This document shows, in pieces, positions 38,860 to 44,412 of a stretch of DNA of 64,000 nt (position 1 is the first letter of the stretch; each line of letters opens with the position of its first letter). The stretch is from a virus: the IMG/VR virus record IMGVR_UViG_3300027867_000005, positions 1 through 64,000 of that record. The stretch is one strand, 5' to 3'. The notes beneath the pieces are model-generated. The model was not told the origin of the DNA, ran no database searches, and worked only from the letters and a program-made list of their open reading frames with translations. The position numbers and the translations under genes are program-made.

Positions 38860-38961
38860 CGAATTGCCAAATGGGGAGTTATCAGCCAATTCATGAATTG
38901 CATTGGGGGCCACACACGTTCGGTGTAGGCCCTCGAAAGCTTTCGGGAAGCTGGTAATTCG

Positions 38962-39399
38962 ATGGCCAAATCAGGCGGTTTCCGACCGGGCGCGGGTCGC
39001 CCCAAGGGGGCAAAGAGCCGCTCCCTCGAAGATCGCATCCTCAGCCGTGACCACGTCGGCCGGCGCGCCAACAAGCGCTTTCCGATCCTGACTGCGGCCG
39101 TCGCCAAGAAGATCATTTCCGAGGCCATCCTCTGCGGACAGACGCCGCTCGAGGTGATGCTGTTCACGATGCGGTGGCATTTCACCGATGGCCGGTTCGA
39201 CGACGCAGCGCGTGTGGCGAAGGACGCCGCGCCCTACATGCACCCGCATTTGACTTCGACGAAGGTCGAAATTCGCCGCCCCGAAGACATGACCGATGAC
39301 GAGCTGGCAGCACACCTTGCCGCAGCAGAGGCCGCGCTCGAAAATGGCGGCGGACTGGGCGAAGATACTCCGCCAGGAACAAGCCAGACGCGCCATTGA
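38962..39399 (+). CDS. Terminase small subunit
   Basis: 145 residues. It begins SGGFRPGAGRPKGAKSRS, the basic start seen in many phage small terminases, followed by LTAAVAKKIISEAILCGQTP, PLEVMLFTMRWHFTDGR and AARVAKDAAPYMHPHLTSTK. Small terminases recognise packaging-start DNA and regulate the large subunit. The gene overlaps the large-subunit start by 56 bases, as usual in this type of phage. Confidence 0.85.
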   Translation: MAKSGGFRPGAGRPKGAKSRSLEDRILSRDHVGRRANKRFPILTAAVAKKIISEAILCGQTPLEVMLFTMRWHFTDGRFDDAARVAKDAAPYMHPHLTSTKVEIRRPEDMTDDELAAHLAAAEAALENGGGLGEDTPPGTSQTRH

Positions 39400-40936
39400 C
39401 GCCGATCGGGCGCGTGAGGTTTATCTGACACAGGCAGAGCGTCGCACACGGCTGTACCGGCTGTACCCTGAAACCGGACCGTTGCGCCGCGAGCTCTACC
39501 CGAAGCACATGGAGTTCTTTGCGCTAGGCGCAGTACACAGCGAACGCGCGTTCATAGGCGGCAATCGCTGCATTACCCCATGGACGCCCATTGAAATGGC
39601 GCGGTCCACGCGCCTGCCCGCAGAAATTCTCGGCGAGCGTAGCCTAGATGTTCGATCGTGGGCTGATGGATCGCGATGTGGTGCTCAAGCCTCCGGCGTA
39701 TTTCTGAAGGGCATAGAGCCAGCGTTTCGAGTTCACTTGGACAACGGACAAGCTTTTGATTGCTCGGGTGCGCACCGGGTATTGAGCGTCGCGGGCTGGA
39801 TTGAGTTCGGCCTGTTAATGTCGCTCTCAGATGGTCTGCGTTTGAAGGATAGAGCGCTAGATTATCCGGCCAATTGTGCCACGGCACATTGTCGAGATGA
39901 TCGGGCACCTCAGAGCGATCGAGATAACGGCCAAGCACAACCTCCATCACCAGGCGATGCTCGCCAACGCGCCCTGTCGATGATCGAGCGTGCTGGTGAA
40001 GAGGAGCAAAAATTCCGATATATCCATGCTTATCCAGGGATCGGCGGCCCCTCCATTCTTGACGACCCGGACCAGCTCGCGGACCTGATCGGGCAGTTTG
40101 AAGACCCCATTTCAGTACCCGGCGCTCTATTGACCGAATATGAACGCCGAGAATATCAGCGGCTTGTCGCTGAGTTAGGCCCTCTTGCAGCAGAAGCATC
40201 TGGAGGTGATCTCGATCGATCAAGTTGGCAGCCAGATTGTCGGCTCTTTTTCCCATTTCGGCACATCCCATTGATTGGTGGGAATAGGATTGTATGCGCC
40301 GAGGCGCTAGGTTTCCAGCCAATCCTCGACATCGAGGTCTACGGCACGCACTGCTACGAAACTGGCGGCGTGATCCATCACAATACTGGGAAAAGTTTTT
40401 GCATCGGGTATGAGGGCACGTGCCACCTGATCGGCTGGTACCCCGATTGGTGGACCGGCCGCCGGTTCAATCGGCCTGTCATAGGTTGGGCGGCGGGCGA
40501 AGATGCGAAGGCTGTGCGAGAGTCCTTGCAGCCGACGCTCTGCGGGCCAGCCGAGGCGCGCGGGACGGGGCTGATCCCTGGCGAAATGATTTTACGCTCC
40601 CCAACGCGCAGCGGCATCCCCGACGCGATCGATTTCGTCGAGGTGAACCATTCATCCGGCGGTCGCAGTCGCTTGGTCTTCAAGGCTTACGAGCAGGGGC
40701 GAGAGAGCTTCCAGGCTTCGCGGATCGATTTCGCCCTGCTCGACGAGGAGCCACCGTTGCACATCTACACCGAGACGCTGACACGAACGCTATCGACGGT
40801 GCCGGGAGAGGCAAACGGCTTGGTGCTGTGTGCCTTCACGCCCCTGAAGGGTGTCAGCGAGACGGTGCTGCAATTCCTGCCAGGTGGCGCTTACCCTGCG
40901 ACGGAGGAATTACGCAAGCAAGCCTGGGGGTGGTGA
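39344..40936 (+). CDS. Terminase large subunit, ATPase part, with intein in Walker A
   Basis: 530 residues from ATG 39344. N-extein (RREL YPKHMEFFALGAVHSE region) leads to FIGGNR, the first half of the Walker A P-loop. A 272-residue intein follows (39569-40384), then TGKSFCIGYEG completes GGNRTGKS. Walker B is IDFALLDEE near the end, with the C-motif in LCAFTPLKGVS. The stop at 40934-40936 cuts the protein before the nuclease domain, which lies in another frame from 40938. With the intein removed, the extein ATPase part is about 258 residues. Self-splicing must restore the P-loop for packaging to work. Confidence 0.85.
   Translation: MAADWAKILRQEQARRAIDADRAREVYLTQAERRTRLYRLYPETGPLRRELYPKHMEFFALGAVHSERAFIGGNRCITPWTPIEMARSTRLPAEILGERSLDVRSWADGSRCGAQASGVFLKGIEPAFRVHLDNGQAFDCSGAHRVLSVAGWIEFGLLMSLSDGLRLKDRALDYPANCATAHCRDDRAPQSDRDNGQAQPPSPGDARQRALSMIERAGEEEQKFRYIHAYPGIGGPSILDDPDQLADLIGQFEDPISVPGALLTEYERREYQRLVAELGPLAAEASGGDLDRSSWQPDCRLFFPFRHIPLIGGNRIVCAEALGFQPILDIEVYGTHCYETGGVIHHNTGKSFCIGYEGTCHLIGWYPDWWTGRRFNRPVIGWAAGEDAKAVRESLQPTLCGPAEARGTGLIPGEMILRSPTRSGIPDAIDFVEVNHSSGGRSRLVFKAYEQGRESFQASRIDFALLDEEPPLHIYTETLTRTLSTVPGEANGLVLCAFTPLKGVSETVLQFLPGGAYPATEELRKQAWGW
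39569..40384 (+). other. Intein in terminase large subunit (Walker A insertion)
   Basis: 272 residues, Cys1 to Asn272. Block A: CITPWTPIEMA. Block B: FDCSGAHRVLS, with the His in place and Ser-Gly-Ala in the usual T-x-x positions. Block F/G: ILDIEVYGTHCYETGGVIHHN, ending His-Asn, with Thr as the +1 residue. Junctions: FIGGNR before and TGKSF after, which rebuild GGNRTGKS. The centre (about 84-225) is not a LAGLIDADG endonuclease; its opposite strand encodes an HNH endonuclease. The whole reading frame has no stop. Confidence 0.85.
39573..40256 (-). CDS. HNH endonuclease nested antisense inside the intein
   Basis: 227 residues from ATG 40256 (an upstream ATG at 40322 is also in frame). A helix-turn-helix LTQRQAADILGVHIRSIERR is near the start. 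The HNH part is VGEHRLVMEVVLGRYL, then VPDHLDNVPWHNWPDNLALY and SNADHLRATLTG, giving the His, Asn/Asp and His pattern of phage HNH enzymes. The HNH core (about 39818-39968) sits in the central part of the intein. Its 3' end runs antisense to the N-terminal splicing block up to the intein border. Probably the homing endonuclease of this intein, encoded on the other strand. Confidence 0.7.
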   Translation of the reverse strand: MGKRADNLAANLIDRDHLQMLLLQEGLTQRQAADILGVHIRSIERRVLKWGLQTARSGPRAGPGRQEWRGRRSLDKHGYIGIFAPLHQHARSSTGRVGEHRLVMEVVLGRYLDRSEVPDHLDNVPWHNWPDNLALYPSNADHLRATLTGRTQSSPRRSIPGAHPSNQKLVRCPSELETLALCPSEIRRRLEHHIAIHQPTIEHLGYARREFLRAGAWTAPFQWASMG

Positions 40937-40937
40937 G

Positions 40938-41732
40938 GTGACCAAGGCCGTCGTTCAGGCCGGCTGGGATGAAACGCCACATCTGAGCGAAGAAGCCCGC
41001 CAGCAGCTCATCAACTCCTATCCCCCGCATGAGCGCGACGCACGCACTCGCGGGGTGCCCCAGCTCGGTTCGGGGGCGATCTATCCGGTTCCTGAGACGG
41101 AGATCGTCGTCGAGCCATTCGAGTGGCCGCATTTCTGGAAGCAATGCTACGCGCTCGATGTCGGATGGAATCGTACTGCAGCGCTTTGGGCTGCTTATGA
41201 CAGCGAGCACGATGTCGCCTATCTGGTGAGCGAGCATTACCGGGCGCAAGCCGAACCGCCGATCCATGCACAGGCAATTCTCGCGCGCGGCAAGTGGATA
41301 CCGGGCGTCATTGATCCGGCGGCACGGGGCAGGAGCCAACGCGATGGCCAAGACCTCTTCGGCATCTACACCGACCTCGGGCTCAGGCTCAGCCCTGCCG
41401 ATAACGCCGTCGAGGCTGGCATTTATGAGGTTTGGACGCGCCTCTCGACCGGACGGCTCAAGGTCTTTTCGACGCTCACGAATTGGCGGGCGGAATATCG
41501 GCTCTATCGTCGAGACGAGAAGGGGCGCGTCGTCAAGGAGCACGATCATTTGATGGACTGCTGCCGCTATCTCGTGATGACCGGTCTCGACATCGCGGCA
41601 TTCAAGCCGCGCGAGCAGCGCTCTGGCCCACAGATGAAGGCCGACTACCGCCCGATCGAAGCCTGGGACCAGTCGCGCGGCGGTGGCCGCAACGTCGCCA
41701 ACGGACCGTATCGTCCGTATGGAGCAGGCTGA
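40938..41732 (+). CDS. Terminase large subunit, nuclease part, in +1 frame
   Basis: 264 residues if started at GTG 40938, one base after the ATPase stop, with GGGGGTGGTGAG as a possible ribosome site. It continues the terminase with VVQAGWDETPHLSEEARQQL, PPHERDARTRGVPQLGSGAI, ALDVGWNRTAALWAAY (nuclease Asp), VIDPAARGRSQRDG and DHLMDCCRYLVMTG (last acidic residue). Relative to the ATPase frame it needs a +1 step within or near the G5 run at 40926-40930. Either two separate chains are made, or a frameshift joins them, or the sequence has a one-base error. Confidence 0.8.
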   Translation: MTKAVVQAGWDETPHLSEEARQQLINSYPPHERDARTRGVPQLGSGAIYPVPETEIVVEPFEWPHFWKQCYALDVGWNRTAALWAAYDSEHDVAYLVSEHYRAQAEPPIHAQAILARGKWIPGVIDPAARGRSQRDGQDLFGIYTDLGLRLSPADNAVEAGIYEVWTRLSTGRLKVFSTLTNWRAEYRLYRRDEKGRVVKEHDHLMDCCRYLVMTGLDIAAFKPREQRSGPQMKADYRPIEAWDQSRGGGRNVANGPYRPYGAG

Positions 41733-41733
41733 C

Positions 41734-42018
41734 ATGGGTTTCCTGTCGCCAGCGCCGGTACCGGCCCCGCCGCCTCCGCCACCGGCACCACCACCGCCGC
41801 CGACAATCGCCAACGCTAGCACCCAGGCCGCAGGTGCGGCGGCAGGGGCCAGTGCTGCGGCTGCAGGGGGCGCGTATGGGGGGACGTTGCTCACCTCCGG
41901 GCAGGGTGTGCCCGCGCCAGCCACGGCGACCAAAGAGTTACTCGGGCAAAGTATTTTGTTGGCGATGATCTTTGGTAAGGTTATCTTCGCTGCATGCCAT
42001 TCGCACGGATTGATCTGA
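41734..42018 (+). CDS. Proline-rich small virion-cluster protein, altered C-terminus
   Basis: 94 residues from ATG 41734. MGFLSPAPVPAPPPPPPAPP, an Ala-rich middle and a conserved-looking TLLTSGQGVPAPATATKELLG are typical of a short protein found between terminase and portal in such phages. The remaining residues after KELLG (ending CHSHGLI) look foreign and overlap the start of the HNH gene by 25 bases, so the HNH insertion probably changed its end. Function unknown. Confidence 0.65.
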   Translation: MGFLSPAPVPAPPPPPPAPPPPPTIANASTQAAGAAAGASAAAAGGAYGGTLLTSGQGVPAPATATKELLGQSILLAMIFGKVIFAACHSHGLI

Positions 42019-42509
42019 TTGGGCTTCGCTTCGGGCGACTTTGCGTTAAAGCCCTCGTGAGGGTTACGCCTAGTGGAAGTCTCTGGCACTGTGAATGCGA
42101 CTGCGGTGGTTCATGCGAGGCCACAACTTCGCGACTGAAGCGCACGCCAAATGTAGGCTGCAAAAGTTGTGAGACCGAGCGCCGCGCCGCCGTACAGTCA
42201 AAGCACGGCGAGAGCAGGGGCAACTCGAACGGCGGTAAAACAAAACTCTACATGATCTGGAAAGGCATGCATAGTCGATGCCGCGACCCAGGCAACACGA
42301 GTTGGAAGTATTATGGCGGGAAGGGCATTACCGTTTGTACCGAGTGGGCAACTTACGTGCCGTTTCGTGATTGGGCGCTCGCTAATGGTTACAAAGAGGG
42401 GCTGAGTATCGAGCGTGAAAATCCCCAACTCAATTATGTGCCCGAGAACTGCGAATGGATTACTCGCGGTGAAAACAGCCGAAGGGCTCATCTGCGCACA
42501 AGATGCTGA
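41994..42509 (+). CDS. HNH-type homing endonuclease (free-standing)
   Basis: 171 residues. It starts with ARIDLIGLRFGRLCVKALV and has a CDCGGSC...CKSC zinc-like part. Then follows YMIWKGMHSRCRDPGNTSW, YYGGKGITVCTEW, FRDWALANGYKEGLSIEREN and YVPENCEWITRGENSRR. This is a known mobile endonuclease layout in phages (YGGxGIxVC/D...YxPENCxW). It is inserted between the proline-rich gene and the portal. No intron core could be found around it, so it is taken as free-standing. Confidence 0.75.
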   Translation: MPFARIDLIGLRFGRLCVKALVRVTPSGSLWHCECDCGGSCEATTSRLKRTPNVGCKSCETERRAAVQSKHGESRGNSNGGKTKLYMIWKGMHSRCRDPGNTSWKYYGGKGITVCTEWATYVPFRDWALANGYKEGLSIERENPQLNYVPENCEWITRGENSRRAHLRTRC

Positions 42510-42585
42510 GACATCGGAGCGCCTTACCGAGATTTATCCGCTAAGCAACCCGAACGCACTCAGACGGATCGACAGGTCAATTTGA

Positions 42586-44412
42586 ATGCCCCTCGACGGG
42601 ATATCAGTAGGGAGCGAGCCGGGTACGATCGGGCCGATGTTTCTGGCGCGGCAGCCAGTCTCTGCCCCTGCACCGAAGCGCATTGAGCCGTGGCCGGCCT
42701 ATTATGCTCACTACACCGCGCGCTTGGGGGCGCTCCGGGTATGGAGATACTCGTGGTGGGTGCATTGGGCTCGCTGCGCCGAGTTCATCCTGCCCTACCG
42801 TTACCGGTGGCTTGTCACCGCGAATACCTTCAATCGCGGCTACCCGGTCAACGATCGCATCATCGACGAGACCGCGCTTCTGGCGATGCAAGTCTGCGGG
42901 CATGGGTTGCTCGCAGGGCTCATGGGCGGGGAGTGGTTCAAGCTCGGTCTCGGGCTTGCCGGCGAGGAACCGCCTGACGCTGCGGCGCGTGAGTGGCTGA
43001 AGACCGTTCAGGACCGGCTCTATGCGGTGCTCGACGGCTCGAACTTCTACACGATCATGGCGCAGGCGATGCGCGACGTGGCGACGTTCGGAACGGCTCC
43101 CGTGCTTATCAACGAGGATTTCGAGGACGTAATCCGCTGCTATCTGCCGTGCGCCGGGGAGTATTACCTCGCAGTGGGCGGCCGGCTCGCAGTCGACACG
43201 TTCTATCGCGAATTCACATTTACCGTTGCGCAGATCGTCGATCGCTTCAAACTTGAGAACTGCCCCGAGGAAGTCCAGCAGTTTTGGCGCACCGGTGGTG
43301 CTTCGCTTGAGCGCGAGTTTGTGATTTGCCACGCCATTGAGCCGAATTTCCCGATCGCCGGCAAAGGCACGCGGGGGAATGCGGTTTATCTGGTGCCGAA
43401 GGGTTTCACCTGGCGCTCGGTCTACTGGATACGCGGCGAGCAGAATATGGCGCCGCTGGAAGCTCGTGGGGAGCACGATCAGCCATTTGCGGTAGCGGCG
43501 TGGACGCGCACGAGCAACGATGCCTACGGCCGCGGTCCTGGGATGGACGCATTGGCTGCCACCCGGCAGTTGCAGCATGAGCAGGAGCGGAAGGGCGAAT
43601 TTATTGACAAGGGTGTTCGGCCGCCGATGGGCGCGCATCCGCAGCTCGAGCATAAGCCGGCATCGATCCTTCCCGGTGAATTGACCTTCGTCAACACGAG
43701 CACAGGCGAAAAGGGCTTCTGGCCGCTATTCGAGGTCAACCCGGCGCACCTGGCTCCGATGATCGAGGACATCAAGGAAGTTCAGGAGCGTATCAATCGC
43801 TGCTTCTATACCGATGTTTTCCTGATGATTACGCAGATGGAGGGCATCCAGCCGCGGAACGAGCTTGAGCTTGCGGAGCGCAAGGGTGAGAAAATTCAGC
43901 AGCTTGGCCCGGTCATCCTGCACTTTCAGACCGAATTCGCGCCAACGGTCATTCACCGCGTGCTGGGGATCATGCAGCGGCGCCGGCTCTTTCCGCCACC
44001 GCCCCCCTCGGTACGCAACAAGCCGCTCAACATTGAGTTTCTATCGATGATGGAACTGGCCCAGCGTGCGGCCGAGACGGCAAGCATGGAGCGAGGTTTC
44101 TCGGTGCTGGGCTCACTGTCCGAAGCCTCGAAAGCCGCGCAGCAGCCAGATCCGATCCGTACCGTCAATTTGGACAAGGCGTGGAATTTCTATGCTGAGC
44201 GTGTCGGGTTCCCGATGACGGTGATGCGTTCGGCCCGCGAGGTCGCGGCGATCGACAAGGCCAACGCGCAAGCCGCGCAGCAAGCGCAGGCGGCGCAAGC
44301 CGGGATGGCCGCAGTGTCGGCGGGTCAGGGCCTCAGCAATATACAGGTCGGGGGCGGCCAGAATGCGGTGAGTGCGTTGCTCGGCAATGGTCCGGTCGCA
44401 GGGAGCGCATGA
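42586..44412 (+). CDS. Portal / head-to-tail connector protein (T7 gp8-like)
   Basis: 608 residues. The portal family pattern is visible: WVHWARCAEFILPYRYRWLV near the start, LAGLMGGEWFKLGL, FYTIMAQAMRDVATFGTAPV, then NDAYGRGPGMDALAATRQLQ, RINRCFYTDVFLMITQMEG and ELAERKGEKIQQLGPVILHF. This is the head-tail connector of T7-like podoviruses, a dodecameric ring through which DNA is packaged. The C-terminus is Ala/Gln-rich. The stop overlaps the next start. Confidence 0.85.
   Translation: MPLDGISVGSEPGTIGPMFLARQPVSAPAPKRIEPWPAYYAHYTARLGALRVWRYSWWVHWARCAEFILPYRYRWLVTANTFNRGYPVNDRIIDETALLAMQVCGHGLLAGLMGGEWFKLGLGLAGEEPPDAAAREWLKTVQDRLYAVLDGSNFYTIMAQAMRDVATFGTAPVLINEDFEDVIRCYLPCAGEYYLAVGGRLAVDTFYREFTFTVAQIVDRFKLENCPEEVQQFWRTGGASLEREFVICHAIEPNFPIAGKGTRGNAVYLVPKGFTWRSVYWIRGEQNMAPLEARGEHDQPFAVAAWTRTSNDAYGRGPGMDALAATRQLQHEQERKGEFIDKGVRPPMGAHPQLEHKPASILPGELTFVNTSTGEKGFWPLFEVNPAHLAPMIEDIKEVQERINRCFYTDVFLMITQMEGIQPRNELELAERKGEKIQQLGPVILHFQTEFAPTVIHRVLGIMQRRRLFPPPPPSVRNKPLNIEFLSMMELAQRAAETASMERGFSVLGSLSEASKAAQQPDPIRTVNLDKAWNFYAERVGFPMTVMRSAREVAAIDKANAQAAQQAQAAQAGMAAVSAGQGLSNIQVGGGQNAVSALLGNGPVAGSA

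Follow-up and report, generated by a model that had tools for sequence, protein, structure and literature searches.

The window (the whole 64,000-nucleotide stretch analysed here) comes from an IMG/VR virus record that is 64,505 bases long. On its + strand, an open reading frame (ORF) of 546 amino acids (39296..40936) encodes the ATPase of a terminase large subunit, intein included, with matches to Terminase_6N (9.7e-12) and phrog_31467 (2.7e-40) at residues 364–528. The frame runs through the terminase to GGNR, continues as CITPWT...HHN and resumes with TGKSFCIGY.... The Walker A motif is therefore split between GGNR and TGKS by an intein of 272 amino acids (39569..40384, +), which extends from Cys1 to Asn272 and is followed by Thr at +1, as the original prediction had it. 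The nuclease domain of the terminase occupies a separate downstream ORF (40938..41732, +; Terminase_6C 3e-8, phrog_5653 3e-19), which is listed from a GTG at 40851 and has a further in-frame GTG at 40938, immediately past the ATPase stop. The terminase is thus split in the window (40934–41732), the ATPase ORF stopping ~183 amino acids past the intein. A stop 171–187 amino acids past the intein also occurs in seven relatives (L058, L059, L061, L062, L076, L102 and L111); in L061 and L111 this stop is immediately followed by a nuclease-like ORF, and none is visible in the other split-terminase relatives. Just 3′ of the terminase lies a second, free-standing HNH endonuclease gene (41994–42509, +; phrog_374 8e-47).

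Cys1 supplies the required N-terminal nucleophile of the intein, and the block B histidine (H69) and the C-terminal His-Asn pair (H271, N272) are present. Together with D254, Y263 and G267, these residues are invariant across 26 relatives. The +1 residue, Thr in the window, is Ser, Thr or Cys in every distinct relative counted. A rule for the +1 serine codon in enterobacterial alleles (TCC when empty, AGY when occupied) was dropped, as both kinds are found in occupied alleles family-wide. The Pfam Intein_splicing profile matches 14 of 24 relatives and gives no match to the window intein. An AF2 model of the latter matches the Ssp DnaB, Mtu RecA and Npu DnaB mini-inteins in Foldseek (E 8e-8 to 6e-7), indicating a HINT fold.

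In the model, both HINT halves are well ordered and the linker between them is disordered. The N-terminal splicing domain (residues 1–92; 39569..39844, +) has a pLDDT of ~90 or more save for the last few residues, and from 39576 onward it is dual-coded with the C-terminal tail of an HNH gene on the opposite strand. The linker (39845..40210, +) faces the HNH core, and its residues 95–161 have a pLDDT mostly below 50. The C-terminal splicing domain, as delimited in the structure model, spans residues 215–272 (40211..40384, +); the HNH gene starts 128 nt from the intein 3′ end, and the final 42 intein residues fall outside it. No endonuclease profile matched the + frame, which agrees with the earlier view that the central region has no LAGLIDADG motif in the intein frame. 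Together with the disordered linker, this rules out a canonical bifunctional intein with an in-frame endonuclease domain. A mobile group I intron is likewise ruled out: positions 38900–42600 gave no Rfam match up to E 0.1, hence no intron RNA match, and the host ORF is open through the insert.

The HNH gene on the − strand (39573..40256) encodes 227 amino acids plus stop and most likely begins at ATG 40256 (MGK). The longest ORF on this strand has 249 codons and begins at TTG 40322. We consider the ATG the likelier start because window-type relatives also begin with MGK, nearly all of them at exactly the same 128-nt offset. The original prediction of a 227-codon complementary frame with a helix-turn-helix (HTH) and an HNH motif was borne out (40256–39576): the HTH lies at about residues 15–50 and the HNH core, DHLDNVPWHNWPDNL, at residues 119–133. 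In profile searches, the antisense ORF (39573–40322, −) matched phrog_10730 (1.3e-17), phrog_7545 (1e-13) and Pfam HNH_3 (3.6e-4, below the gathering score). HNH_3 matches 37 of the 39 family members, and H100, R101, R110, E116, H120, D122, N128, N132 and H142 are invariant across the 39 aligned. The structure model has a mean pLDDT of 84 and gave no significant fold match, the best being I-HmuI (E 0.96). Shine-Dalgarno-like motifs precede many members (for example AGGAGG in L007 and L008); the window gene has only a weak GGGA and one promoter-like match, near chance level. Window-type relatives (L052, L054 and L056 in this comparison) have an extra N-terminal HTH-like segment, absent from the window, with the start position unchanged.

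Searching IMG/VR with HNH queries returned 78 loci, 51 with a query of the type found in Pseudoalteromonas phage PHS3 and 27 more with a window-type query. In 78/78, the HNH gene lies antisense within a long terminase ORF and in one phase. A C terminus with its splice site can be seen in every locus but L034, which is cut by its contig end. Many of these loci are near-duplicates, so they represent fewer independent lineages; 39 divergent members, comprising the window and IMG/VR loci only, were aligned. To guard against circularity, we also used as query the C-terminal splice region alone, which lies mostly outside the HNH gene. This gave 111 loci, partly overlapping the 78, and an antisense HNH in 109 of them. 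The two exceptions are L188, at a contig edge, and L120, a mini-intein of 132 amino acids. Homologous inteins in which the antisense frame is conserved, as the original prediction had proposed to look for, are thus common, and the relatives keep that frame open. Intein lengths are given only where pattern-based detection of the start worked, many loci having been missed by the pattern.

The pair extends to cultured phages and bacterial genomes. In Pectobacterium phage Ymer, the HNH gene is antisense within a 754-aa intein-bearing terminase and annotated merely as "hypothetical protein"; in PHS3, it is antisense within a Terminase_3-type terminase. Host terminases match both Terminase_3 and Terminase_6 profiles. 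Scanning viral contigs with the window HNH alone found no relative, nor did a genome-contig scan with a three-sequence alignment; a second genome scan led to the Enterobacter cloacae DSM 26481 prophage, and E. coli MEI003 likewise carries the pair. In MEI003 (L202, 2017–4304), RefSeq keeps the antisense HNH and calls the intein-containing terminase an N-terminally truncated pseudogene. The arrangement described here accounts for this misannotation, which is possibly systematic for this family. PaP3-like terminases, considered as carriers because their matches started within the intein, were dropped, since the annotated terminases are of ordinary length.

The phase of the overlap allows selection on the two strands to be told apart, as the HNH wobble base pairs with intein codon position 2, and HNH position 2 with intein position 3. 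Exteins vary at codon position 3, whereas this pattern is inverted in the HNH overlap of those close pairs tested that were informative (HNH overlap against C-extein, Fisher P 1e-11 to 1e-31). Differences at intein positions 2/3 were 66/20 in the overlap versus 54/208 in the C-extein for L005/L008, 47/10 versus 34/164 for L025/L032, and 49/10 versus 54/236 for L041/L042. Between E. cloacae and E. coli, differences at positions 1/2/3 were 7/37/2 in intein codons 120–280 and 101/71/243 in the C-extein. The linker thus diverges fastest in relatives at intein codon position 2. Where the HNH tail overlies the N-terminal splicing blocks, changes are suppressed at each of the three codon positions in window-type relatives and in the PHS3 group, one example having 5/1/6 differences per 40 codons versus 4/3/20 in an extein bin. 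Comparison of the window with 15 relatives gave differences at HNH positions 1/2/3 of 0.33/0.27/0.59 in the core and 0.36/0.37/0.40 in the tail. Read as substitution patterns, these data show a linker under − strand selection, purifying for the HNH frame, and splicing blocks under selection on both strands, not the exclusive + strand selection that would have spoken against the original prediction. On the + strand, the linker's sole demand is apparently freedom from stops.

Freedom from stops is itself not expected by chance. Synonymous shuffling of the window HNH predicted 5.0 stops in the intein frame (P 0.0005), or 3.2 with extein codon usage (P 0.021), and none is observed. Intein-frame stops are avoided in 29/29 loci tested. 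By comparison, 2–17 stops occur in the equivalent phase of free-standing HNH relatives; for the window HNH itself, the two remaining antisense phases contain 11 and 14. The shuffles and the free-standing controls led us to reject a chance antisense ORF.

Empty and occupied sites allowed terminases with and without the intein to be compared. The terminase of EBPR podovirus 1 reads ANRVGKT at the insertion point, and AGFGSGKT is uninterrupted in E. coli ET729 and in Escherichia phage PHB10; all three are clean empty sites. The Enterobacter terminase has 1,008 bp inserted exactly at the AGFGSGKT site, with flanks ~90% identical to PHB10. Its intein is 92% identical in DNA to that of E. coli, against ~65% for the C-exteins, and the HNH-overlap regions of L054/L055 and L012/L014 are identical despite 47 and 57 extein differences. 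On this sequence evidence, the intein has been transferred between diverged terminases. Dual-coding constraint could account for part of the 92% identity, but it lacks the power to explain 92% against 65%, as wobble sites are free to change. Loss is also visible. The terminases of L147, L150 and L158 are nearly identical, but an in-frame deletion has removed most of the HNH region from the latter two, a loss that gives mini-inteins. In eight relatives (L011, L059, L060, L061, L068, L070, L082 and L089), stops interrupt the HNH frame and the intein-terminase frame is open. This is consistent with decayed endonucleases, so some copies would be inactive.

On this evidence, the element is very probably a mobile intein served by a homing endonuclease that has its own gene on the opposite strand. 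The proposal that one DNA segment provides an intein linker on one strand and an endonuclease on the other is supported by phase, position and coding constraint. Everything functional about the pair (splicing, expression of the HNH, cleavage, homing) is inferred from sequence. In the terminase precursor, the HINT domain would fold, its halves joined by a disordered, stop-free linker, and the intein would splice itself out and restore the P-loop. The probable targets of the HTH-HNH endonuclease from the − strand are terminase genes that lack the intein, which it would cut or nick close to the Walker A codons, and repair would copy the whole element into them.

The original prediction had offered an alternative, in which a mini-intein was invaded in reverse by an independent HNH gene and the + frame was kept open by luck. 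In its full form, the HNH gene would be unrelated and free-standing, and the two would be neighbours that form no functional unit. HNH genes are common in phages and HNH-free mini-inteins of the same type exist (L120), and such an invasion may well be how the element originated. As a present-day description it is very unlikely, because phase, position and coding constraint are conserved across many phages: phase, position and start offset are the same in every case, and stops are avoided against expectation. Moreover, divergence of the HNH core correlates with that of the non-overlapping C-terminal splice region (Spearman 0.71, Mantel 0/999), above the correlation of either one with the extein (0.59 and 0.52).

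A real antisense gene might instead now serve another role, in competition between phages or in antisense control of terminase, and not homing. HNH proteins can act in phage–phage exclusion, and modulation of terminase by antisense transcription is conceivable. Nevertheless, a homing cycle fits the presence of both empty and occupied alleles, the movement of the intein between diverged terminases and the loss that leaves mini-inteins, and we regard a role other than homing as highly improbable. A reading in which the HNH frame is only the non-coding shadow of a conserved linker domain on the + strand has a negligible probability. Chance can leave an antisense frame open, and the intein frame does sit in an essential gene, yet the inverted periodicity refutes a conserved linker: changes fall at intein position 2, where they always alter the intein and seldom the HNH. 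In addition, the linker is disordered in the model, and the invariant HNH residues are shared by all 39 divergent members.

Inteins are usually pictured as a splicing domain fused to an in-frame endonuclease. The mobile intein with an opposite-strand endonuclease adds a large group whose endonuclease is encoded antisense, with members in cultured phages as well as in prophages of Enterobacter and E. coli, and an unusually clear natural example of antisense overlapping genes with both strands under selection. We lean, with some reservation, towards a broader view, in which phage inteins include a widespread class of dual-coded selfish element with an opposite-strand overlap, selection on both parts, an entrenched endonuclease, its own expression schedule and movement across families. 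The overlap would entrench the endonuclease because a frameshift in the HNH gene also breaks the essential terminase, which offers a testable idea for why endonuclease loss is rare in these inteins. If this broader view holds, the HNH gene would follow an expression timing of its own, and an element aimed at P-loop codons could cross between unrelated terminase families.

Searches of one open-access library turned up no intein with an antisense endonuclease, subscription papers and outside preprints lying beyond that coverage, and the arrangement is likely, though not certainly, new. A 1997 paper by Dalgaard, cited in PMC8966425, reportedly concerns an HNH-family intein, going by its title. 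The Ssp DnaB, Mtu RecA and Npu DnaB mini-inteins share the HINT fold with window residues 1–92 and 215–272, and L120 is of mini-intein size without an HNH; the window intein, by contrast, retains a long linker because the opposite strand needs it. I-HmuI is intron-encoded. As the top nuclease match (PDB 1u3e), a weak one (profile E 0.05 and the fold score above), it shares an HNH motif and a DNA-binding region with the window HNH, whose clade differs in its N-terminal HTH and its position antisense in inteins. Mobile inteins with in-frame endonucleases, such as PhoVMA and TliVMA (PMC8966425), have in common with the window type a HINT splicing domain, a conserved insertion site, empty and occupied alleles and evidence of lateral transfer; in the window type, however, the endonuclease is a separate opposite-strand polypeptide outside the precursor, and the splicing domain is partly dual-coded. 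The nearest precedent is the antisense homing endonuclease genes of myxomycete group I introns, for example Dsq.L2066 / I-DsqI of Didymium squamulosum (PMC9548176). There too, a splicing element carries a homing endonuclease gene antisense to its host gene. Group I introns, however, splice as RNA, which leaves the strand opposite their endonuclease free of protein coding, whereas the pair in the window needs open reading frames on both strands.
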